NCBI GenBank assembly: GCA_009785325.1
Contig: WQWN01000007.1
Location: 1-43,805 of the forward strand
DNA from: Candidatus Saccharimonadota bacterium
GTDB taxonomy: Bacteria > Patescibacteriota > Saccharimonadia > Saccharimonadales > Saccharimonadaceae
Reading direction: 5' to 3'
DNA: 43,805 nucleotides
Position numbers and translations under genes: made by a program. The notes under the pieces were generated by a model, which was not told the origin of the DNA, ran no database searches, and saw only the letters and a list, made by a program, of their open reading frames with translations. Positions 13,911 to 43,805 of this stretch are shown piece after piece. Each line of letters starts with the position of its first letter. Within the stretch, counting starts at the first letter, position 1.

Positions 13911-14210
13911 ATGAAGAGTCTGACGAGAGAAAATGCTGAGGAATACGCAAAAAAGTTGATGTTTAATATCCAAGAGAACGAAGTAGATCAACTTGTGAAA
14001 GATTTTCAGGTGATGGCTCAACAATTAAGATGTTTAGAAAAATTACCTGGAATTGAAAGTGTAGAACCGATGACTTTTCCTTTTGAGAATGAAGATGTGA
14101 GGATGAGGGAGGATGAAGTGACTGTAGAATTGAGTCGAGAAGAGGCTTTTAGCAACTGTAAGGACGTGAAAGACGGTGAAGTAAGAGTGCCGAGAGTAGT
14201 AGGAGAATAA
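13911..14210 (+). CDS. gatC: Asp-tRNA(Asn)/Glu-tRNA(Gln) amidotransferase subunit C
   Basis: This 99-residue protein matches GatC, the small subunit that wraps GatA and GatB in the transamidosome. The helical N-terminal half is followed by ESVEPMTFPFENEDVRMREDEV and ends in the conserved DGEVRVPRVVGE. The length is normal. The start is ATG 13911 with AGGAG four bases before. It is the first gene of gatC-gatA-gatB, with only one base between its stop and gatA. The complex forms Gln-tRNA(Gln) and/or Asn-tRNA(Asn) by amidating misacylated tRNA, which is typical of bacteria lacking GlnRS or AsnRS. Confidence 0.9.
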   Translation: MKSLTRENAEEYAKKLMFNIQENEVDQLVKDFQVMAQQLRCLEKLPGIESVEPMTFPFENEDVRMREDEVTVELSREEAFSNCKDVKDGEVRVPRVVGE

Positions 14211-14211
14211 G

Positions 14212-15705
14212 ATGGGTGATTATGATTTCGGAAAAGGACTAAAGAAGATTAGTGAGGAGTTAATAAGTGGGGAGGTGACGAGTGAAGAGTTGGTGGAGGT
14301 GTCTTTGAGGCGGGCGAAAGAGTTTGAGAAATATGGAGCGTTTGTGACATTGTTGGACGATGAGTCTGACAAGAAAGGACTGACTGCTTCCGCCGAAGAA
14401 ACTTCTTCGACTCCGCCTGAAGCAGGCAAGTCTGTTTTGACAGGAATTCCGTATGCGATGAAAGATAACGTTTCGACTACTGGAGTTTTGACGACAGGGT
14501 CGTGTAATATCTTAAGAGATTATGTGCCGATATTTGATGCAACTTGTTATAGGAAGCTGAGTGAGGCTGGAGCGGTTATGGTGGGGAAAACTGTACTAGA
14601 TGAATTAGCAATGGGAGGAAGTGGATTAACTGGGTATACTGGACCAGTTGTAAACCCATGGGATGAAACAAGGCAGACTGGAGGATCTAGTGCGGGAAGT
14701 GCAGTGGCGGTAGCGCTTGGAGTTGTGCCGTACGCAATAGGTACAGATACAGGAGATTCAATCCGAAATCCGGCAGGTAATTTAGGGGTTGTAGGATATA
14801 AACCAACGTACGGGATGATTTCACGATGGGGAGTGTTTGCTTTTGCTTCTAGCATGGATACTGTCGGAGTTTTGGCGCGAAGTGTGCGCGATGCGGCGAT
14901 TGTGGCTGATACAATGCGCGGGCGGGATGAGTTAGATATGACTTCGTACGATAGCGGGGAGTTGGTTGATGGGTTGGATGGAGACGTAAAAGGTAAGAAG
15001 TTGTTTGTAGTAAAGGAGTTAGCGGAAGAGTTGAAAGAGCATTCACTGGATATTTATGAGAATTATCTAGAGACGATCGAGGTCGCACGAAAAGCTGGGA
15101 TGGAGGTGCTGGAGGAGTCGGTAGACCGAGAACTACTAAAGTGTGTGTGTGGAGTATATTTTGCGATAAGTTGTGCAGAGGCAACAAGTAATAATTCAAA
15201 TTTGACAGGAGTTATTTTCGGGGTGCGAGAGGACGGAGCGACACCGGATGAAGTGATGATCAATACCCGTACAAAAGGTTTTTCTGAATTTGTGAAGAAG
15301 CGATTTGTGCTAGGGAGTTATATTTTACAGGCTGAGAATCAGGAAAAATTATTTAAAAATGCCCAGCGAGTGCGACGATTGGTTGTAGATAGATTTAATG
15401 AATTATTTGAGAAATATGATGGGTGGTTGGCGCCGAATGCGATGGGTATTGCGCCAAAAATTGACGAAGAAGTGGATAGACTAAGTAATAGTTATTTGAT
15501 TTTGAGTCAGTATTTAGCGATTGCTAATTTTGGAGGATTTCCAAGTGTGACGATCCCGAGTGGAGTGGTGCGTAATAATCCAGTCGGTGTGAATATAACT
15601 GCAAAAGCGAAGGATGATGCGGGAGCTTTAAATATCGCGGTGGTAATGGAGAAAGTGATTGGGTTTAAGGCGCTAGACGAAAAGCTTGAGGAGATGAGCC
15701 GATGA
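14212..15705 (+). CDS. gatA: Asp/Glu-tRNA amidotransferase subunit A (amidase)
   Basis: This 497-residue amidase-signature enzyme releases ammonia from Gln or Asn for GatB. The Ser-cisSer-Lys triad is visible. The Lys is K84 in GIPYAMKDNV, and the signature follows as QTGGSSAGSAVAVALG and TDTGDSIRNPAG with the catalytic Ser. The common DTGGS motif reads DTGDS here, a variant I recall from other GatA proteins and so probably functional. Just before the amidase core, 14384-14425 is a C-rich 42-base palindromic segment that fits in frame and makes an odd TSSTPPEAGK stretch (see findings). AGGAG in the end of gatC is the SD site. The stop overlaps gatB (ATGA). Confidence 0.95.
   Translation: MGDYDFGKGLKKISEELISGEVTSEELVEVSLRRAKEFEKYGAFVTLLDDESDKKGLTASAEETSSTPPEAGKSVLTGIPYAMKDNVSTTGVLTTGSCNILRDYVPIFDATCYRKLSEAGAVMVGKTVLDELAMGGSGLTGYTGPVVNPWDETRQTGGSSAGSAVAVALGVVPYAIGTDTGDSIRNPAGNLGVVGYKPTYGMISRWGVFAFASSMDTVGVLARSVRDAAIVADTMRGRDELDMTSYDSGELVDGLDGDVKGKKLFVVKELAEELKEHSLDIYENYLETIEVARKAGMEVLEESVDRELLKCVCGVYFAISCAEATSNNSNLTGVIFGVREDGATPDEVMINTRTKGFSEFVKKRFVLGSYILQAENQEKLFKNAQRVRRLVVDRFNELFEKYDGWLAPNAMGIAPKIDEEVDRLSNSYLILSQYLAIANFGGFPSVTIPSGVVRNNPVGVNITAKAKDDAGALNIAVVMEKVIGFKALDEKLEEMSR
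14384..14425. repeat. In-frame palindromic element inside gatA
   Basis: An outer inverted repeat CTGCTTC (14384-14390) / GAAGCAG (14419-14425) encloses an inner one, CGAAGAA (14394-14400) / TTCTTCG (14403-14409). It is C-rich within strongly G-rich coding sequence and its length is a multiple of three (42 bases). Confidence 0.6.
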
Positions 15706-17153
15706 AAAATGCAATAAAAGATATAACGAAAGAGTTTGATATCGTGATCGGACTAGAAGTTCATTGTGTACTGACGACGAAGTCAAAGAATTTTTCTGGG
15801 GCGCGGAATGAGTTCACGAGTGAGGCGAATGCCAATATTTCGGAGGTTTGTTTAGGGTTTCCTGGAACACTACCTGTAGTGAATAAGGAAGCGGTGCGGA
15901 AAGCGCTGATGGCGGCGCTAGCGATGAATTGTAAGACACCCAATGAAATTGTGTTTGATCGGAAAAATTATTATTATCCCGACGTACCAAAAAATTATCA
16001 ATTAACTCAAGCAACGAAGCCTGTAGGAGTGGATGGGTATGTGATGGTGGTAATGAAGGATGGCGATAAAAGAATTGGGATTCATGACACACACCTAGAG
16101 GAAGACGCGGCGGCGATGGATCATTTTAAGGATTATTCGCTAATTGATTATAATCGGGCGGGCGGGCCGCTATTAGAGACTGTGACGACGCCATGTATTT
16201 ATAGTGCGGATGAAGCGGTGGCGTTTTTAGAAACTCTGCGCTCTATATTTTTGTACTGCGGGATCGCGGAAGCGGATCCGAAGAAAGGACAGATCCGTTG
16301 TGATGTTAACATCAGTTTGAAACCTAAAGGCAGTGAAATATTAGGGACGCGCGTGGAAATGAAGAACATAAACTCGTTCACAAACGTGAGGATGGCGATT
16401 GAGAGCGAAGCTGTGAGACAGGCGGATATTCTAAGGAAAGGTGGGGAGTTAACACAAGAAACCCGGCGGTTTGATGATGTGAAAGGGAAGACTTTTTCGA
16501 TGAGAAGTAAGGCGGACGCAGTGGATTATAAGTACTATTTAGAACCAAATTTAGTACCTGTGAAAGTTTCTGATGAGTGGATTAGTGAGATCCGAGATGA
16601 AATTCCGATGTTGCAATTTGAGAGGATCGAGAAATATATAGAGTGGGGTTTAAGTCGAGGAGATGCGATAGTATTAGCGCGGGAGAAGGGTGTAGCGGAT
16701 TATTTTGAAGATATAGTAAGTGGGGGTGTGACTGTGAGTGTGGCAGCGAACTGGATAGTGGAAGTGATGCTCGGATACCTCGCGAAGCTTGGTTTAGAAA
16801 TTGGTGATATATCGGTAAAATCGGGAATGTTAGTGGAGTTGATTAGTATGGTGGAAAGTGGGAAAGTGTCGAGAAACCAAGCAAAAGACGTATTGGAAAT
16901 AGCAATTGAAAAGAGTGAAGACCCAGTGAAACTAATAGATAAAATGGGAATGAGTCAGATTTCGGATGACGAGGAAATCCGGAATATAGTGAGGGAAGTT
17001 TTAAAGGAGCAGGTAGCAAGTGTAGAACAATATCGTGGCGGAGATGAAAAAGTATTAAACTTCCTAGTAGGACAAGTAATGCGTAAAACTGGGGGTAAGG
17101 CAAATCCAGGAATGACACGAGGAATCGTGGTTGAGGAGATTACGAAGGGGTGA
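15702..17153 (+). CDS. gatB: Asp/Glu-tRNA amidotransferase subunit B
   Basis: This 483-residue protein has all the GatB landmarks. The N-terminal DIVIGLEVHCVLTTKSKNF is followed by VCLGFPGTLPVVN and by FDRKNYYYPDVPKNYQLTQ. The synthetase core continues with EEDAAAMDH, SLIDYNRAGGPLLE, IRCDVNIS and VEMKNINSF. The C-terminal YqeY-like tail ends GKANPGMTRGIVVEE. GatB binds the misacylated tRNA, activates the acyl side chain with ATP and transfers ammonia from GatA. The length is normal. The ATG overlaps the gatA stop (ATGA), so expression is coupled. Confidence 0.96.
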   Translation: MKNAIKDITKEFDIVIGLEVHCVLTTKSKNFSGARNEFTSEANANISEVCLGFPGTLPVVNKEAVRKALMAALAMNCKTPNEIVFDRKNYYYPDVPKNYQLTQATKPVGVDGYVMVVMKDGDKRIGIHDTHLEEDAAAMDHFKDYSLIDYNRAGGPLLETVTTPCIYSADEAVAFLETLRSIFLYCGIAEADPKKGQIRCDVNISLKPKGSEILGTRVEMKNINSFTNVRMAIESEAVRQADILRKGGELTQETRRFDDVKGKTFSMRSKADAVDYKYYLEPNLVPVKVSDEWISEIRDEIPMLQFERIEKYIEWGLSRGDAIVLAREKGVADYFEDIVSGGVTVSVAANWIVEVMLGYLAKLGLEIGDISVKSGMLVELISMVESGKVSRNQAKDVLEIAIEKSEDPVKLIDKMGMSQISDDEEIRNIVREVLKEQVASVEQYRGGDEKVLNFLVGQVMRKTGGKANPGMTRGIVVEEITKG

Positions 17154-17215: not shown

Positions 17216-18529
17216 ATGAAGAGTGTTGTGATTTTTATCGCGAAGTTTTTGAGTTTTTTTATGAATATACTAGGACGAACTGGAGGGAGTTTGCCTGGTG
17301 TGGTGGCTCTAAAGTTTGACTCGCGGATTTTAGAGAAATTGGTGTGGCCAAAAGATGTAGTGGTAGTGACGGCGACTAACGGGAAGTCGACTATGACAAA
17401 TATGATTGCGGATGTTTTTGAGAAAGATGGGCGACGTGTGGTGGTGAATCGACAAGGGGATAATCTACGGCGAGGGGTGGTGAGTTTGATGATGAAGAAT
17501 GTGAATTTACTTGGGCGGGTGCGGGGAGATGTGGTGGTGCTGGAAGTGGATGAGATGAGCGTTAGAGATTTAATGAGAGAAGTACCAGTGAGTGTTTTAC
17601 TGGTGGGTAATATTTTCCGGGATCAATTAGACCGAGTGGGGTCGATAGAAAATGTGATCTCGCGGCTCGAGGAATGTGTGGTGGAATATTCTGGGAAGTT
17701 GGTTTTATGTGGAGATGATGTGGGGGTAGCGCGGTTGAGTTTGAAAACTAAGGCTGAGGTAGTTTATTTTGGGATAGGGAGAGTAGAGGGGAGTTTAGAT
17801 AAGTGTGACGAGTCGCCGGATGGAAAGATATGTCCGCGCTGTGGGGAGTTGCTGAGATATGAGTTTTATCAGTATTCGCACCTAGGAAGGTTTTTATGTG
17901 TGGAGTGTAGGTTTGGGGATTTTAAAGTGGAGTATCTAATAGATAAAATAAACTTAGATATAGGTAGTTTCATAGTGAGAGGGGTGGAGTTTAAGATTTT
18001 AAATAAGACTACTTACGGGGTTTATAATGCGTTAGGAGTTGTGGCGGTTTGCTCGGAGATGGGGGTGGATGTGAGGGTAGTGAAGGATGTTTTAGTTGAG
18101 TTTGAGATAGGAAATGGGCGAATGGAGGTGTTTGAATTAAAAAATGGAAAGAAGTTAGTAGTGAATGTAGTGAAAAATGTGGCGGGGGCGAATGAGATTA
18201 TAAAGTGGATTATGAGTCAGAGTGGAAAGAAAGAGGTTTTTATCGTGTTGAATAATGCAATAGCAGACGGGGAGGATATTGGTTGGATTGAGGATGTGAA
18301 GTTTGAAATATTAGCAGATGAAAATATAGAAAGAGTGATTTGTGGAGGGATGAAGGTAGAAGACATAAGTATAAGAATAAGGAAGGCGGGCGTGGAAGAT
18401 AGTAAGATTTTAGTAGTGAGAAATATTAAGGAGGGGGTGGAGAAACTGTGTGATAAAAATAGTGATAAGTTTATAATGGTTTCTTACACAGGCGTGAAGA
18501 GTGTAAGGGATGAGTTAAGAAAGTTATAA
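17216..18529 (+). CDS. murT: MurT-like Mur ligase (lipid II isoglutaminyl synthase subunit)
   Basis: This 437-residue Mur-ligase-family protein has the ATP loop TATNGKST at 52-59. The middle domain contains LEVDEMSV, NIFRDQLDR and a four-Cys zinc-ribbon insert (CPRCGELLRYEFYQYSHLG then CVEC, about 205-233), which is characteristic of MurT. A DUF1727-like C-terminal part follows (VVNVVKNVAGANEIIKW). MurT with GatD amidates the D-Glu of lipid II. No gatD is adjacent or elsewhere in the window. The start is ATG 17216, preceded by GAGGT; a TTG at 17183 gives an extension without an SD site. The last two codons overlap recF tail to tail. Confidence 0.85.
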   Translation: MKSVVIFIAKFLSFFMNILGRTGGSLPGVVALKFDSRILEKLVWPKDVVVVTATNGKSTMTNMIADVFEKDGRRVVVNRQGDNLRRGVVSLMMKNVNLLGRVRGDVVVLEVDEMSVRDLMREVPVSVLLVGNIFRDQLDRVGSIENVISRLEECVVEYSGKLVLCGDDVGVARLSLKTKAEVVYFGIGRVEGSLDKCDESPDGKICPRCGELLRYEFYQYSHLGRFLCVECRFGDFKVEYLIDKINLDIGSFIVRGVEFKILNKTTYGVYNALGVVAVCSEMGVDVRVVKDVLVEFEIGNGRMEVFELKNGKKLVVNVVKNVAGANEIIKWIMSQSGKKEVFIVLNNAIADGEDIGWIEDVKFEILADENIERVICGGMKVEDISIRIRKAGVEDSKILVVRNIKEGVEKLCDKNSDKFIMVSYTGVKSVRDELRKL

Positions 18530-19549
18530 CCTAATCGTAGGCTTCATATTTTTTGGGGTTGAAGTGGAAGTTATTAAAGTTTGGTGAGAAGTGAAGTTTT
18601 TTACTAGGTGACACTGATGATTATCGTCTAATTCAGAGAAAATATCATCTAAAAGTATAATTGGGAGTTGATTTAGTTGGTTTTTGATTAGTTCAGATTC
18701 GATGAACTTCAAAGCGATTAAAGTACTTCTTAGTTCGCCGCGAGAGGCGGTGTCGATGGCGAGGCGGGAGTTAAAATGGAAAATAATATCGTCACGGTGA
18801 GGGCCAAAGGAGGTGGAGCCGGTGGCTAGGTCGTGGATTAGTTTCTTAGTTAGTTCAATTAAGAATCGAGATTCATCGATAGAGGTATTAGTGTAGGTTA
18901 GGTGAATTTGGTCGGATTTGTCGGCGATAGAATTATAAGTTTGAGTGATTGTTTGGTTGATTTGGTCGATGAAAAATTTTCTTTTCAGGATGATTTCACT
19001 GCCGTATTTAGCTAAAATAATATCCCATGGGAATAGTTTATCACGGGATGGAGAGTCGGATTTTAAGAGGGTATTTCTTTGTTTTAGGGCTTTTTCGTAT
19101 TTATTAGTGGCTTGGTGGTAGAGAGGGTCAATTTGGGATATGAGAGTATCGAGGAAATCGCGGCGACGGGAAGGGGAGCCGCTGATGAGATTTAAGTGGG
19201 TTGGTTCGAAGAGAACGATAGGGTAACGGTTTTTAGGGGTGAGGCGGGAGGATTTTCGATCATCGATTTGAAATTGTTTTTTATTTATTAATAGATCATA
19301 AGTGACGGTGCGAGGGTTTTGGTTTATGAGGTGGATTTCAATTTTATATGAATCTTTATCGGATTTTATAATATTAGGGTCGGTGGATTTAAAGGATTTT
19401 CCACGAAGGGCGATATGGAGAGCTTCTAGAATAGAGGTTTTTCCACTACCATTTGCGCCAATAATAAGTGTAGTAGGGTCGGTGAGAACTAACTCGAAGT
19501 GATCATGACAACGGAAGTTAGTGACAGAGATTTTTTTAATGATATTCAT
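18524..19549 (-). CDS. recF: DNA replication and repair protein RecF
   Basis: This 341-residue SMC-like ATPase loads RecA at single-strand gaps through RecFOR. Walker A GANGSGKT is at 31-38, the ABC-type signature SRGELRS at 269-275, and Walker B (LPIILLDDIFSELD) at about 295-308. EPTHLNLISGSPSRRRDFLD is the typical RecF segment. The length is slightly under the usual 360. It follows dnaN by 7 bases and ends with dnaA-dnaN-recF in the classical order. Its stop and that of murT share the palindrome TTATAA (18524-18529), so both proteins end in Leu. The SD site is weak (AAAGAG), consistent with coupling to dnaN. Confidence 0.95.
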   Translation of the reverse strand: MNIIKKISVTNFRCHDHFELVLTDPTTLIIGANGSGKTSILEALHIALRGKSFKSTDPNIIKSDKDSYKIEIHLINQNPRTVTYDLLINKKQFQIDDRKSSRLTPKNRYPIVLFEPTHLNLISGSPSRRRDFLDTLISQIDPLYHQATNKYEKALKQRNTLLKSDSPSRDKLFPWDIILAKYGSEIILKRKFFIDQINQTITQTYNSIADKSDQIHLTYTNTSIDESRFLIELTKKLIHDLATGSTSFGPHRDDIIFHFNSRLAIDTASRGELRSTLIALKFIESELIKNQLNQLPIILLDDIFSELDDNHQCHLVKNFTSHQTLITSTSTPKNMKPTIRL

Positions 19550-19556
19550 CGAGTTT

Positions 19557-20657
19557 TTAACTCTTTAAAGGCATAATGATGTGGGTGTAATTATCTATTT
19601 TTGAGTTTTTAACGACAACTGGAGCTAATTTACCACTAAATCCAAATTTAATTTCTGAATCAGAAACGTGATTTAGAGCGTCAATTAGAAATCGTGAACT
19701 AAGAGTGATTTTACTATCAGTATCAACATCAACTGATATAGTTGAGTTATTTTCTCCGACTTCTGAAGCTACGGAACTAATAATTAGATTATTATCTTTA
19801 CTATTTGTTTCAATAATTATAGAACCTCCTGATTCGCGCGCAAATAGACTAGATAACTTAGTAACACGGAGAAATTCACTAGTGTTTAATATAATATTAA
19901 CATCTGTAGTTTTTGGGATGAGCTGGCGATAATTAGGGAAGTTACTGTCGATAATTTTAGAAGTGATTTCAATAGAGTTAAGTTGAAATTTAACTTGGTT
20001 TTCGTCGAATAAGATTTTAATTTCGGTGATTTCTTCACTAAGGGAACGAAGAACTTCTTGGAGAGAAGAAATCGGAACAATTAGAGCGATGTCGTCGGCG
20101 ACGTTCTCGATAAACTTACGTTCAGCGAGGCGATAACCATCAGTAGCGGCGATAAATAAGTCGTTTTCGAAAGTATTAAAATATACACCAATTAAGGCTG
20201 GACGAGTAGTATCATTACTACCTGTGACGATAGTTTGAGTGATAGCTTCTTTAAATTCGTCGGTTGGTATTATGAATGAAACCACTTTTTCTTCATCTAG
20301 AATTGGAAGTTCTGGGAAGTCGTCTGAGTCTATACCATTAATTGTAGATTTATATTGGTCTGAAGTGATTTTTAGGTTGCCTTTTATAACTTCTAGAGTA
20401 ATTGGTTTATTTGGAAGGTTATTAATAAATTCTGCAAGAAGTTTAGCGGGGATTGTAATTGATCCTGGTTTTGAGATTTCCGCAGGAATAGATTCGATAA
20501 TAGCTACTTCTAAGTTTGTTGATGAGATAGTGAGGCTAGATTTGTCGGTGCGAAGAAGAATATTATTAAGAATTGGGAGACCTGCTTTTGGGGTTGCAAT
20601 ACGGGATGCGATACTTAAAGCTTTTGATAATTTATTTTGAGTGATTTGTAGTTTCAT
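19557..20657 (-). CDS. dnaN: DNA polymerase III beta sliding clamp
   Basis: This 366-residue, three-domain clamp has the usual MKLQITQNKLSKALSIASR N-terminus, then LPILNNILL, IPAKLLAEFINNLP, TDGYRLAERK and the C-terminal HIIMPLKS (the family ends M-P-[MLV]-x). The ring holds the replicative polymerase on DNA. GGAG lies eight bases before the ATG. It is downstream of dnaA after a 277-base non-coding region and directly upstream of recF. The length and motifs are normal. Confidence 0.97.
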   Translation of the reverse strand: MKLQITQNKLSKALSIASRIATPKAGLPILNNILLRTDKSSLTISSTNLEVAIIESIPAEISKPGSITIPAKLLAEFINNLPNKPITLEVIKGNLKITSDQYKSTINGIDSDDFPELPILDEEKVVSFIIPTDEFKEAITQTIVTGSNDTTRPALIGVYFNTFENDLFIAATDGYRLAERKFIENVADDIALIVPISSLQEVLRSLSEEITEIKILFDENQVKFQLNSIEITSKIIDSNFPNYRQLIPKTTDVNIILNTSEFLRVTKLSSLFARESGGSIIIETNSKDNNLIISSVASEVGENNSTISVDVDTDSKITLSSRFLIDALNHVSDSEIKFGFSGKLAPVVVKNSKIDNYTHIIMPLKS

Positions 20658-20934
20658 TTTAGAAGCTCCTTATTACTTAAATTATATAGTAGTTGTCGTA
20701 GTAGATGGTTGTGTAATGTGTGGAAAAGTATAGAAATTATAGATATAAAGGTGGTTAGTGGAGTTGTGAGAAAATTGTGGTGTGGGTTGAGGAATAGTTG
20801 TGAGTAATTGTAGTTTTTTGTGGGAAAGTTTAGGTTCTTGTCGTTGCTGTTGTAGGGTTGTGGGAAAGTTTTCAAGGGATTTCCTAATAGTTTTACGTTG
20901 AGATTTCCAGAGAGTTTCCACAGTTGTTATAAAC
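20658..20934. other. dnaA-dnaN intergenic region with DnaA-box-like sites and direct repeats
   Basis: This 277-base region has no gene. It holds DnaA-box-like nonamers TGTGGAAAA (20719-20727) and GTTTCCACA (20914-20922), each one base from the consensus TTATCCACA or its complement. Two identical copies of TTGTGGGAAAGTTT (20818-20831 and 20858-20871) are spaced 40 bases apart. The region is AT-rich in part and is a candidate for part of the replication origin, or for DnaA-controlled expression of dnaN. Confidence 0.45.
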
Positions 20935-22272
20935 TTATACATAAAGTTTTTCTCGGATCTCATTAACTTGTTCGCGGATAAAGTGATCGAGTTTGATAGC
21001 TTTTTCAATTTTCTTAATCGAATGAAGGGCTGTAGTATGGTCTTTACGACCGAGTTCGATAGCGATTTTAGGGTAGCTGAGTTTAAGTTCATTACGGAGG
21101 AGGAACATGGCGATTTGGCGAGGTTCGGCGATATGTCGAGAACGCTCGGCACTACAAATATCCTTTGGGCTGATTTGGAAATATTGAGCTGTTTTATTAA
21201 TAACTTGTTTAGGAGTGAGATAGCGTGGACGGGCTGTTGTAGATAAGTTACTTGTGAGGCCTTCAGCGATAGAGAGGTCTGGTGCTACACCACGCATCTC
21301 GCAGTAAGCGAGGAGTTGGTTGAGGGAGCCCTCAAGTTCACGAATATTAGTTTTAATATTAGTGGCGAGAAACTCAGTAACTTCAGATGGGAGTTCGAAT
21401 CCAGCGGAAGAAGCTTTTGATTCGATAATAGCGGAGCGAGTCTCGAAGTCAGGCATTTGGATGTCGATAGCCATACCCCATTCGAAGCGGTTGCGGAGGC
21501 GGTCGGTTAGAGTAGGAATTTCGCGAGGTGGGCGATCAGAGCTAATAATAATTTGTTTATTCTTTTGATGAAGATCATTGAAGGTGTGAAAGAATTCTTC
21601 TTGAGATTTTTCTTTACCAGTGATGAACTGCATATCGTCAACAATAAGGACGTCTACATTTCGGTATTTATCCGAGAAGCCTTTTGTGAAGCGCATAGCT
21701 GCTACGAATTCTTTATAGAAACTCTCAATTGTTGTATAAAGAACAGTTGTTAACGGATTATTTTTAGTGATTTCATTACCAACAGCCTGCATAAGATGGG
21801 TTTTACCAAGACCGGATCCACCATAAAGAAAGAGAGGGTTGTATTTAGTACCAGGGTTTTTGACGACAGCTTGGCAGGCGGCTACAGCTAAGTCATTATT
21901 TGAACCGATAATAAAATTAGAGAATTGATAACGAGGATTGAGGCCATTATTTATTAATGGGGATTTAGATTTTAAAGATGATTTTATTGTCGCTGTGGCT
22001 GTTTCGTTTTGGCGAGAAGTAGGTTTTTTATTTTTTGAGATAATTATATATTCGATTTTTGTAGACTTGAGACTGTGGTTTTTGAGTGAGGTGGTGATGA
22101 TTTCGTTGAATTTCTTTTCGAATTGAGATTTAGCGAAGATATTAGCTACACCGATAATTGTGAGATTTTTATCATGAGATATAAGTTCTATGTTTTTAAA
22201 CCAGGCTTGAAAAGCGGCATGGGGGATAGTAGATTCCATCTCTTTTAAAGCATCAGACCATAGATCTTGCAT
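20935..22272 (-). CDS. dnaA: Chromosomal replication initiator DnaA
   Basis: This 445-residue initiator has domain I (LWSDALKEMESTIPHAAFQAWF) and a short linker. The AAA+ domain has Walker A GGSGLGKT at 151-158, Walker B VLIVDDMQFI and SSDRPPREIPTLTDRLRNRFEWG. Domain IV contains the signature SYPKIAIELGRKDHTTALHSI that binds DnaA boxes. GGAGG lies five bases before the ATG. A promoter with TAAAAT (22309-22314) and TTGTGG (22332-22337, 17-bp spacer) overlaps a DnaA-box-like site, so autoregulation is likely. Only rpmH is divergent from it. Confidence 0.97.
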   Translation of the reverse strand: MQDLWSDALKEMESTIPHAAFQAWFKNIELISHDKNLTIIGVANIFAKSQFEKKFNEIITTSLKNHSLKSTKIEYIIISKNKKPTSRQNETATATIKSSLKSKSPLINNGLNPRYQFSNFIIGSNNDLAVAACQAVVKNPGTKYNPLFLYGGSGLGKTHLMQAVGNEITKNNPLTTVLYTTIESFYKEFVAAMRFTKGFSDKYRNVDVLIVDDMQFITGKEKSQEEFFHTFNDLHQKNKQIIISSDRPPREIPTLTDRLRNRFEWGMAIDIQMPDFETRSAIIESKASSAGFELPSEVTEFLATNIKTNIRELEGSLNQLLAYCEMRGVAPDLSIAEGLTSNLSTTARPRYLTPKQVINKTAQYFQISPKDICSAERSRHIAEPRQIAMFLLRNELKLSYPKIAIELGRKDHTTALHSIKKIEKAIKLDHFIREQVNEIREKLYV

Positions 22273-25206: not shown

Positions 25207-25257
25207 GTATTTTACCCTATCCACTTACTGCGCGAGTAGGCGGGTAGGGTAAAATAC
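25207..25257. other. Large inverted repeat in the leader of the minus-strand gene
   Basis: Two 23-base arms (25207-25229 and 25235-25257) surround GCGCG. The outer 13 bases, GTATTTTACCCTA and its complement, match perfectly. One inner pair is a mismatch and two are G-T. It lies between the promoter at 25301-25329 and the start at 25166. Confidence 0.75.
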
Positions 25258-41387: not shown

Positions 41388-41573
41388 TTGGTGTCGAGTA
41401 GTCGATGTAAGAAATGCGACACGAAAAAAGGAGAAGGCAGGTGTTTTGACTGTGTGCGTAAGAGAAATGATGTGCGCTGCAGAAATACAGCTAATCGTGC
41501 TGTAAGAAAAAGCACAAATCCTCACCACGATGGACTGAAGGGTAATCGTGGAAACGGTGGGGGTAGGCGCTAG
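41388..41573 (+). CDS. Small Cys-rich basic protein A1, unrecognised family
   Basis: This 61-residue protein has two Cys pairs (RCKKC and RCFDC), as in a small zinc ribbon. A basic stretch with one more Cys follows, then a Gly/Asn/Arg tail RKSTNPHHDGLKGNRGNGGG. The tail is nearly identical in A2 at 43566, and the noncoding sequence after both copies is also conserved. The start TTG 41388 is chosen because A1 and A2 share it, and because a stop (TGA) lies nine bases upstream in frame in both. The SD-to-start distance of 12 is long but identical in both copies. Conservation of tail, leader and frame argues that it is real. The function is unknown; nucleic-acid binding is a guess from the basic, zinc-ribbon-like make-up. 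Confidence 0.6.
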   Translation: MVSSSRCKKCDTKKGEGRCFDCVRKRNDVRCRNTANRAVRKSTNPHHDGLKGNRGNGGGRR

Positions 41574-41581
41574 AGTATTTT

Positions 41582-41621
41582 TGACCTGAGTATGTCGAGA
41601 AACTGCTCAATTTCAAAGGAG
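41582..41621 (+). repeat. Conserved A-B linker, copy 1
   Basis: This 40-base noncoding segment ends in the SD site of gene B1. It is nearly identical to 43767-43805: one substitution and one single-base indel. TGAGT and GCTCA can pair around a loop of about 13 bases. Confidence 0.8.
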
Positions 41622-41626
41622 AAATT

Positions 41627-42049
41627 GTGGGTAAAAAGGTGAAAAAGCAGCGGAATGGAAGGGTGTTGTTTTCGGTTGGATTTGTAGTGGAGGAAACGGT
41701 GAGAGATGACGATGAAGGAGATAGGTTTTTAGAGGAGTTGAATGATTTAAAGGAGAGTCTAGATAAGGTAGTTGATAGGATTCAGGGGGGGTTTGACCCC
41801 AAGTATCGGTCAGGGAGAAAAGAGTGGGGTGTGAATAAGTACAGTGGCTGGGCGGTTTACGGTGGGCAATTTAGTATTATTGCGAACGATAAGATGATGA
41901 TTGAGATAAAGAAGGGGCTGAAGCGAGACTTTCAGAAAATGAAAGATGAAGACGGAGGTAGGGACGAGAACTTGAGAAGGATGAGGATGGCGTTTTGGAT
42001 AGTGAAGAAGAAAGATGGAGATTGGCGACTAGTTTATGGCTTGAAGTAA
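41627..42049 (+). CDS. Basic protein B1, unrecognised family
   Basis: This 140-residue protein starts with Lys/Arg-rich residues (GKKVKKQRNGR), followed by a short hydrophobic strand (VLFSVGFVVEE). A helical acidic segment (FLEELNDLKESLDKVVDRI) comes next, and then a core with NKYSGWAVYGGQFSIIAND, a long basic helix and RMRMAFWIVKKKDGDWRLVYG. It has no signal peptide. The GTG start at 41627 follows AAGGAG by six bases. A frameshifted paralogue (B2) follows 25 bases later. No known family was recognised. Two related copies next to A1, and the linker repeat, suggest a duplicated A-B unit. Confidence 0.65.
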   Translation: MGKKVKKQRNGRVLFSVGFVVEETVRDDDEGDRFLEELNDLKESLDKVVDRIQGGFDPKYRSGRKEWGVNKYSGWAVYGGQFSIIANDKMMIEIKKGLKRDFQKMKDEDGGRDENLRRMRMAFWIVKKKDGDWRLVYGLK

Positions 42050-42074
42050 AGGTCTTGTAGAGGAGAAGTTACCG

Positions 42075-42459
42075 ATGAAAAGAAAAATTAAGAAGAGTCC
42101 GTGCAAGAAGGCGAGATTGACAGTAGTTTTCATATTAGAGAGAGGATGAAGGGTTGTTGGGGGAGTTAAACTTAGTTACGGAAGACTTAACGAAGATGGT
42201 GAGAGATGTCTTGAAAAGGGATGCGCGAGAGGTTTTCTGGCATGATAAATGGTGGACGAATCGGTACTGTGGATGGATGATGTATGGCGGACAATGGGCG
42301 GTCTATGCCAGCAATAAGGAGGTGGAAGAGTTTAAGAAGATGATGAAGCGACAGCTGAAGGAGATGGGCGTAAGACAGGGAAATGAGTATATGAGAGAAA
42401 TGAGGATGAGTTTTGGTGTGGTGAGGAAGTGGGATCGGGAGTGGCAGAGGCTGCATTGA
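42075..42459 (+). pseudogene. Frameshifted paralogue B2 of gene B1
   Basis: An ATG at 42075 opens a frame reading MKRKIKKSPCKKARLTVVFI that stops at 42147-42149. Homology to B1 resumes in the +1 frame from about 42142 to the stop at 42459 (REDEGLLGELN, then NRYCGWMMYGGQWAVYASN and EMRMSFGVVRKWD). The break falls in the run GAGAGAGG. One more GA unit would give a continuous protein of about 128 residues. The rest of the second frame is well conserved relative to B1, so the change looks recent, or it is a switch or a sequencing error. A separate 101-residue reading from TTG 42154 is possible but lacks an SD site at a normal distance. Confidence 0.65.
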
Positions 42460-42482
42460 TTGGAGTGGTGAGGTGGGTGTAG

Positions 42483-42491
42483 TGGTATAAT
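42483..42491 (+). promoter_or_regulatory. Extended -10 promoter of CBS protein, leaderless
   Basis: TGG-TATAAT has its -10 box at 42486-42491, with six bases to the ATG at 42498. Confidence 0.7.
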
Positions 42492-42497
42492 ACGGGC

Positions 42498-43499
42498 ATG
42501 ATAGCTGTGATTGTTTTGATGATTTTGTATACGGGAGTGGTGTTTTTGGTGGCGGTGCGACCGCGGCGGAGTGAACTGAGTGTAGGGGAACTAGAGCGGC
42601 GGGTGAAGCGTGGTAGTGGTGATGCAGAGGAAGTGTTGAGGCGGGAGAAATTATTGCCAGATGTGATGGTTCTGCGGAATTTTAAATTGATGGTGGTGGG
42701 GTTGGCTTTTGTGGGGATAGCAGTTGGAGTTTATGGAGTGTGGCTGGGGATTTTTGTGATGATGATGGCGATGGTGGGCGTGATGCCGCTTTCGCGTGTG
42801 AGGATTTTGAGGCGGCTGGTGGCGAAGTTGTATGAGAGTGTGGAGTGGAGGGTTTTGAATTTTGTGGAGAAGTTCGGAGGGGTGTTCAGGGTGTTTAGGG
42901 AGTTTTCGGAGGAATTTGCGAGTGTGAGAGTGAGTTCGCGGGAGGAACTGGAAGAGGTGATTGCGACGGCGGGGAGTGATGTGATTTCGGATGAAGAGAA
43001 GACGATCATGATGAGTGCGGCGAGGTTTGGCGAGAAGAAGGTGGCGGATGTGATGGTGGTGAAAGATGAGGTGTTTTTTGTGGGTGTGGAGGAGGTTTTG
43101 ACGCCGATGGTTTTGGATAAGTTGCACAAGACGGGGTTTGCGCAGTTTCCGGTGATTGGTGGAGGGGTGGATGAGGTGGAGGGAGTGTTGAGGGCGCGGG
43201 ATGTGTTGAATATCCGGGAAAAAAAGTCGCCAGTGGCGGGAGATGTGATGGAGAAGGGAGTAGGTTTTGTGCGAGATGATCATAGCTTGCGACATGCGCT
43301 GGGGGCTTTTGCGCGGACTGGGTATGGGTTTTTTGTGGTGATAAATAGACGGCGGGAGACGGTGGGGATTTTGACACTGAGAGATCTGATGGAGTCGCTA
43401 CTGGGGCAAAAGATGGAGGATGGGTTTGACGAGGATGATGATCGGGCGGTGGTGGCGGGGCGGAAGTTGGATAGTTCGAAGGGCGGAGTGGATGTGTAG
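42498..43499 (+). CDS. CBS-pair membrane protein (CNNM/CorC-like)
   Basis: This 333-residue protein has one or two N-terminal helices (about 2-20 and 55-95). A segment follows with ISDEEKTIMMSAARFGEKKVADVMV, typical of the CorC/CNNM (UPF0053) family just before its CBS pair. Two CBS motifs come next (about 190-245 and 250-305: GFAQFPVIGGGVDEVEGVLRAR and GYGFFVVINRRRETVGILTLRDL). Related proteins are linked to Mg2+/Co2+ transport, with adenine nucleotides bound by the CBS pair. The usual DUF21 membrane domain is reduced here and the C-terminal CorC_HlyC domain is absent. It sits between the two A copies, so it may have been trapped in the duplication. Confidence 0.72.
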   Translation: MIAVIVLMILYTGVVFLVAVRPRRSELSVGELERRVKRGSGDAEEVLRREKLLPDVMVLRNFKLMVVGLAFVGIAVGVYGVWLGIFVMMMAMVGVMPLSRVRILRRLVAKLYESVEWRVLNFVEKFGGVFRVFREFSEEFASVRVSSREELEEVIATAGSDVISDEEKTIMMSAARFGEKKVADVMVVKDEVFFVGVEEVLTPMVLDKLHKTGFAQFPVIGGGVDEVEGVLRARDVLNIREKKSPVAGDVMEKGVGFVRDDHSLRHALGAFARTGYGFFVVINRRRETVGILTLRDLMESLLGQKMEDGFDEDDDRAVVAGRKLDSSKGGVDV

Positions 43500-43502
43500 G
43501 TG

Positions 43503-43511
43503 TGATATGAT
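43503..43511 (+). promoter_or_regulatory. Extended -10 promoter of A2
   Basis: TGA-TATGAT has its -10 box at 43506-43511, seven bases after the CBS gene stop. The predicted leader is about 48 bases. Confidence 0.45.
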
Positions 43512-43540
43512 TCGAGTATCGGAGTAGTCCGAAATTTATT

Positions 43541-43558
43541 CACAACAGAAAGGTTGTG
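43541..43558 (+). promoter_or_regulatory. SD-presenting hairpin in leader of A2
   Basis: CACAAC (43541-43546) pairs perfectly with GTTGTG (43553-43558) around AGAAAG. It has the same position relative to the ATGTANNTTGGT start region as the hairpin before A1. Confidence 0.5.
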
Positions 43559-43565
43559 ATGTATC

Positions 43566-43757
43566 TTGGTCAGTGGTAGAATTTGTTCATGTGGCTTCAC
43601 GAAGGGAACAAATGCATTTTGTTCAAAATGTAGAAGCAAGATGAACACGCAGAAACAGAGAAGCGGAGCAAATCGTTCCAACAGAAAAAGCACAAATCCA
43701 CACAGCGATGGCCTAAAAGGAAATCGTGGACAAGGTGGCGGCAAGAACCGCCGCTAG
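43566..43757 (+). CDS. Small Cys-rich basic protein A2, paralogue of A1
   Basis: This 63-residue protein reads ICSCGFTKGTNAFCSKCRSK at the N-terminal end and carries four Cys placed much like those of A1. The tail RKSTNPHSDGLKGNRGQGGG differs from A1 at only two of 20 positions. The start is TTG 43566, at the same place relative to the leader hairpin as in A1. The N-terminal halves differ more than the tails, so the tail and the flanking noncoding sequence are the most constrained parts. The linker copy after it ends at the window edge in AAAGGAG, just where gene B would begin. Confidence 0.6.
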   Translation: MVSGRICSCGFTKGTNAFCSKCRSKMNTQKQRSGANRSNRKSTNPHSDGLKGNRGQGGGKNRR

Positions 43758-43766
43758 AACATTTTA

Positions 43767-43805
43767 TGACCTGAGCATGTCGAAAACTGCTCAATTTCAA
43801 AGGAG
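43767..43805 (+). repeat. Conserved A-B linker, copy 2 (runs to window edge)
   Basis: This 39-base copy of 41582-41621 ends with the SD sequence AAAGGAG at the last base of the window. TGAGC and GCTCA pair fully here, where copy 1 has a G-T wobble. Confidence 0.8.

Follow-up and report, generated by a model that had tools for sequence, protein, structure and literature searches.

A palindromic block of 42 bases in the gatA gene of a Candidatus Saccharimonadota bacterium is, on comparison with homologous genes, confirmed as an in-frame insertion, and appears to be a core-less or remnant form of a mobile family of hairpin elements that also enters other protein-coding genes. These two propositions, taken together, are considered likely. 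Sequence comparison supports the core-bearing mobile family itself well, while mobility of the gatA block on its own account is held with less confidence than the combined reading. Palindromic elements that extend essential enzymes by in-frame peptide loops are already on record as a curiosity of Rickettsia. The present elements would be an apparently richer counterpart in a different lineage, where insertions have repeatedly struck the same tsaD linkers in dozens of species. If this is true, the movement of such elements, the complementarity of their arms and their tolerance by proteins become testable by comparison, and loops of this kind in the proteins of these bacteria may represent parasitic DNA rather than adaptation.

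A palindromic insertion in the linker of GatA

The window, meaning the whole stretch of 43,805 nucleotides analysed, is contig 7 of a host genome of 678 kb in 7 contigs that is 76% complete. The features on which the argument depends are the following, all given in window coordinates.

13911-14210, + strand: gatC (Pfam GatC)
14212-15705, + strand: gatA, amidotransferase subunit A, the host gene of the insert (Pfam Amidase, E 5e-98)
15702-17153, + strand: gatB (Pfam GatB_N and GatB_Yqey)
14384-14425, + strand: the palindromic block, inserted in frame into gatA; its bases fall within the codons of TASAEETSSTPPEAG
14384-14390, + strand: 5' outer arm of the insert, CTGCTTC, pairing with 14419-14425
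14419-14425, + strand: 3' outer arm, GAAGCAG, pairing with 14384-14390
14394-14400, + strand: 5' inner arm, CGAAGAA, pairing with 14403-14409
14403-14409, + strand: 3' inner arm, TTCTTCG, pairing with 14394-14400
14386-14406, + strand: stretch identical at 19 of 21 bases to the 5' side of an insert in pgi (G000:C5:66620-66640, - strand)
14407-14420, + strand: match to the 3' side of the pgi insert, TCGACTCCGCCTGA against TCGGCTCCGCTTGA (P ~0.004 for this half alone)

The gatA reading frame is intact across 497 codons and the top NCBIfam match of its product is TIGR00132 gatA at 409.5 bits, which falls short of the curated cut-off of 481.1. A first-pass annotation, made from the sequence alone, had described the block as nested inverted repeats, C-rich within a G-rich gene, and on both points it was accurate: the two 7-bp stem pairs are present with sequence and coordinates exact, and the block holds 15 C and 9 G in its 42 bases, against 13% C and 32% G in gatA as a whole. 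The window holds two nested pairs of perfect 7-bp stems arranged in this way, compared with 0.03 per window after shuffling (maximum 1 in 60), and a further 279 kb sampled from the host genome holds none. The second occurrence in the window (19636-19676) was rejected as a further element, its sequence being ordinary dnaN. As RNA, positions 14370-14440 of the + strand fold at -26.4 kcal/mol (z -3.3), a value equalled by none of 200 shuffles. Genome-wide, however, the block is not an extreme hairpin, the best 72-nt window ranking about 1,100 of 53,634, and because many ordinary places in the host genome fold equally strongly, the gatA hairpin is unconvincing by itself. Elsewhere in the window an intergenic hairpin at 25207-25257, with 23-nt arms (GTATTTTACCCTATCCACTTACT/AGTAGGCGGGTAGGGTAAAATAC) that are 87% complementary, may be a terminator or an element.

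The block is absent from all 80 of the closest homologues (49-59% identical), which read like FVTILDDAKEEK-VTDNVLSGIP where the GatA of the window reads FVTLLDDESDKKGLTASAEETSSTPPEAGKSVLTGIP and which align tightly on both flanks; since none of them carries it, the block was inserted, and it sits in the linker that precedes the amidase core. This comparison, proposed beforehand as a means of telling an insertion from a shared, drifting block, thus came out in favour of insertion, and the proposed location in the linker also held. Of the earlier claim that 14 codons had been added without breaking the frame, the frame was upheld and the count was revised, the net gain over the nearest relatives being about 15 codons (45 nt). 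In an AlphaFold model of GatA (with 22 relatives; mean pLDDT 83, pTM 0.87), residues 51-72 have pLDDT below 50 and are predicted to form a disordered loop. The block might instead belong to an ordinary linker that GatA had ancestrally and that relatives have lost, and the position is indeed that of a variable linker, but this is hardly credible when every one of the nearest homologues closes tightly over the site and the distant GatA of the host's own taxonomic family has a different, shorter linker.

The gene itself may have come from elsewhere. Its product shares 49-59% identity with Bacilli-type GatA of metagenome-assembled genomes and only ~33-39% with the GatA of the host's own taxonomic family (full-length matches), so that gatA was probably acquired horizontally; gatA and the Bacillus-type pgi (L002) are both likely horizontal acquisitions, judging by such similarities. 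Other observations on the window concern its ends and its strands. Sequences from the ends of contigs C6 and C3 recur at positions 1-133 and 41489-43805, where the assembly probably broke at repeats. Between 1588 and 43499, plus-strand genes are mostly G-rich and minus-strand genes C-rich, a bias that does not switch at dnaA/dnaN/recF (18524-22272); the title of a paper on a Microgenomates genome (PMC7143001) mentions a comparable disparity.

Probably related inserts in pgi and argS of the same genome

The 42-mer was said to have no further copy in the window, and none exists there at up to 3 mismatches; searches of the genome likewise returned no exact or near copies. Weak matches on C2, C3 and C4 and at C5:16319 were rejected as copies, being ordinary coding sequence. 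The genome search with mismatches allowed, which had been suggested as a way to find copies in other genes, therefore failed as regards close copies but succeeded in part, through a two-sided match in the insert of pgi, which lengthens the protein by 21 residues relative to Bacillus-type PGI (3ifs). The 5' half of the block matches at E 0.05 and the 3' half independently at P 0.004 (12 of 14 bases in the aligner's local match), and the halves agree in order, orientation and reading frame, with ASA-E/D-E/D-TS in both proteins. The alignment of block and pgi insert was matched in 0 of 20,000 shuffles, and when 107,330 windows of 42 nt from the sampled genome were scored against the insert, only 4 exceeded the block, all of them overlapping an element in argS; as the match came from a genome search with the block, part of its strength is selection. 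Between its two sides the pgi insert has a core of ~37 nt, and the gatA block is without it.

The pgi core recurs in argS with 89% identity across 38 nt (E 2e-8). There it has the opposite orientation relative to the reading frame, and the copy is a near-perfect palindrome of 65 nt sitting in a 46-residue insertion that is missing from 18 relatives. The core-bearing copies in the host genome number two, in pgi and argS, and a hairpin scan over 323 kb, about half of the genome, revealed no others, the remaining half having been covered by search tools; the strong hairpins of that scan include two argS inserts, and some of the remainder are tRNA- or terminator-like. The second argS insert, unrelated to the first, lies near the C-terminal domain (L123:2251-2442; -81.7 kcal/mol) and encodes ASPTTAAPRPSSDRGSPKNDDSRSEEGMSTRNDGMDS. 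A partly similar peptide occurs in the ArgS of another genome (G062, L181).

The missing core would also suit a one-off local event in gatA, such as a fold-back or template-switch duplication or growth of the linker, unrelated to the mobile family. The moderate strength of the hairpin points the same way, as do the 394 genomes of the family in which a DNA search with the block gave matches at about chance level, and the tsaD linkers described below, which vary in length without hairpins too (L345 s1, L346 s3). Such an event is nonetheless rather unlikely: both halves of the block match the pgi insert, among sampled windows only the argS element does so better, and the C-rich composition is foreign to gatA. 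The block is probably a core-less relative of the core-bearing hairpin family, as far as sequence likeness can indicate.

The core family, its reading frames and the tsaD linkers

A search of 294 further genomes of the family revealed relatives of the argS copy in 21 of them, frequently more than one to a genome. Within one genus the core pattern was found in 14 of 60 genomes, at 1-7 copies each, with a reversed control giving 0 everywhere. The 48 distinct copies that were read each contain a core of ~30 nt, AGTAAGACTTGGGCTAGCGCCCCGGAGCGCT or a variant, flanked by arms of 15-30 bp which differ among copies and pair within the copy in nearly all 48. Host genes include pgi, argS, uvrB, lepA, ligA, valS, tsaD, tgt, trmD, queA and others, names that come from reading the translations and were not in every case compared with a family library. 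In viral contigs, two core patterns found no matches. Variant copies with a longer apex insert (GGACGTGAGCGGAGCGAACCC) occur in genome G266 (L165, L211, L222), mostly outside genes.

ORFs of 200 or more amino acids contain 33 of the 48 copies. Four of the six frames through the core are free of stops (KTWASAPER, VRLGLAPRS, GASPSLT and GALAQVL), and 32 of these 33 copies use an open frame, with 1 in a closed frame. This bears on whether the inserts reach the protein or are skipped in expression, by byp-like translational bypassing or by RNA excision. Palindromic inserts within genes that are transcribed and left untranslated are on record for yeast mitochondria, as cited in PMC6649704. Skipped inserts would need no open frame, however, so the 32-to-1 avoidance of the two stop-containing frames argues against skipping; the tsaD linker segments, moreover, are all open with lengths of 3n, and the tsaD matches listed show no stop codon. 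Skipping is accordingly regarded as very improbable.

In a sample of about 86 tsaD genes of one genus, one per species, three linkers (s1, s2 and s3) yielded 82, 80 and 84 segments respectively, the 3n length of which is partly by construction, the segments having been drawn from open ORFs. Long linkers are hairpins (z <= -3.5) in 45 of 64 cases, over all three sites. Split by site, hairpins account for 31 of the 35 long and 1 of the 47 short linkers at s1, for 10 of 16 and 2 of 68 at s3, and for 4 of 13 and 1 of 67 at s2. The argS/pgi core is only one among several families of elements harboured there. Further palindromic families of these linkers (L293-L351) encode, for example, the peptides SSDTLKGARPSLRSSE, SSAGLEFSSTSYAG, SLRNAPSRPSSRGSVAP and ATTGASRRGAPVTTGR.

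In three tsaD genes, from three genomes, one element occupies both s1 and s3 with an identity of ~91-99% (127 of 128 nt in L343, ~98% over ~119 nt in L339 and ~91% over ~130 nt in L337). Such pairs are the best evidence of movement that the sequences provide, and gene conversion within tsaD could have contributed to the identity between s1 and s3. The stems extend past the shared element into site-specific sequence, the s3 arm of L337 covering conserved LRE codons; an origin of the arms as simple inverted copies of the host flank would fit site 3 in both L337 and L339 (arm over LRE/LRK codons). A decayed copy is found at site 3 of another tsaD (L320, genome G342), where the 5' arm and core are kept and the 3' arm is missing.

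The arms covary. Comparison of 16 copies belonging to a single subtype gave double changes at 21 of 29 pairs, with a covariation score of 0.391 against 0.159 for shuffles (0 of 500 as high) and 86% paired against 38-61% in slid controls, in a test that favours the structure since the pairs were placed on one derived from the same sequences. Five species share an insertion site in tsaD, and in their inserts double changes affect 24 of 61 pairs, with 94% paired. A one-base bulge was rejected as a conserved arm feature, about half of the copies being without it. Either selection acting on structure or a templated correction of one arm from the other could account for the arm covariation. The former would be expected if the hairpins were functional RNAs, regulatory or ribozyme-like, selected locus by locus and not selfish insertions, and the near-invariant core and compensatory arm changes, seen also at that one tsaD site in five species, are in keeping with this. 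Against it, copies are scattered in both orientations across unrelated genes and linkers, they are sporadic among species (14 of 60 genomes), they repeat within one gene and no Rfam family matches them; templated arm conversion, furthermore, could yield equal covariation without function, as has been argued for nematomorph mitochondria (PMC6649704). A functional RNA is therefore thought unlikely.

Proposed origin and comparison with known elements

The explanation preferred here is that the gatA block derives from a short palindromic element, non-autonomous and inserting in frame, of which it is a remnant or a version without the core. In the family represented in the host genome by the pgi and argS copies, a core with complementary arms would enter protein-coding genes and be tolerated at flexible linkers when one of the four stop-free frames of the core falls in register, the tolerated insert then being translated as an additional loop. 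Copies may spread through a hairpin intermediate, single-stranded or by template switching, with arm complementarity maintained by templated copying between the arms, and the gatA block would descend from this core-bearing family. A more speculative extension, held tentatively and with clearly less than even confidence, is that these are mobile coding hairpins of an undescribed class, in which the core alone is transmitted and the arms are rebuilt or corrected from host sequence by templated copying, so that each insertion would build its own palindrome and leave the gene translatable.

Literature searches found no palindromic elements or in-frame insertions for Saccharibacteria, and no miniature inverted-repeat elements for the Candidate Phyla Radiation. 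The byp elements of Magnusiomyces mitochondria are palindromic and interrupt coding genes, and are not translated. The elements described here are alike in being palindromic interruptions of coding genes, but they keep the frame open, as seen in the 32-to-1 avoidance of closed frames and in the open frames of tsaD.

MITE and REP-type repeats (ERIC, Coxiella QMITE1, REPs) are small, and some are intragenic and fused in frame (PMC10969869). They are defined by shared terminal inverted repeats together with target duplications, or by extragenic location. The terminal arms of the present elements, by contrast, differ among copies, a partial likeness being confined to the GGGTGGCC..GGACAGGACCC subtype, and unlike the extragenic REP/RAYT repeats, 33 of 48 copies are within long ORFs. 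In nematomorph mitochondria, long complementary arms persist in coding sequence, for which templated repeat conversion or template switching has been proposed (PMC6649704). Both arms of those palindromes encode conserved protein, with no insertion element or shared core, whereas the present elements are inserted and have cores common to different genes.

The Rickettsia palindromic elements (RPE) are short, belong to several families and lie in frame in unrelated genes, where they are tolerated (PMC10969869; PMC6649704). Their repeat identity reportedly declines with age (PMC6649704), whereas the arms here covary (0 of 500 shuffles), despite which some copies have decayed (e.g. L320 site 3). 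The elements differ further in their conserved core of ~30 nt, with arms that are copy-specific yet complementary, and in their host, a distinct lineage with a very small genome; they are likened to RPE by behaviour and not by RPE sequences. Within those terms, the likeness to Rickettsia drawn by the first-pass annotation is functionally apt, related DNA lying in frame in pgi, argS and many other genes. In both systems palindromic inserts sit within genes with the frame kept (here in gatA, pgi and argS relative to homologues, and in 33 of 48 core copies), and one element recurs in several unrelated genes, a likeness in which the gatA block itself shares only through its partial match to pgi.
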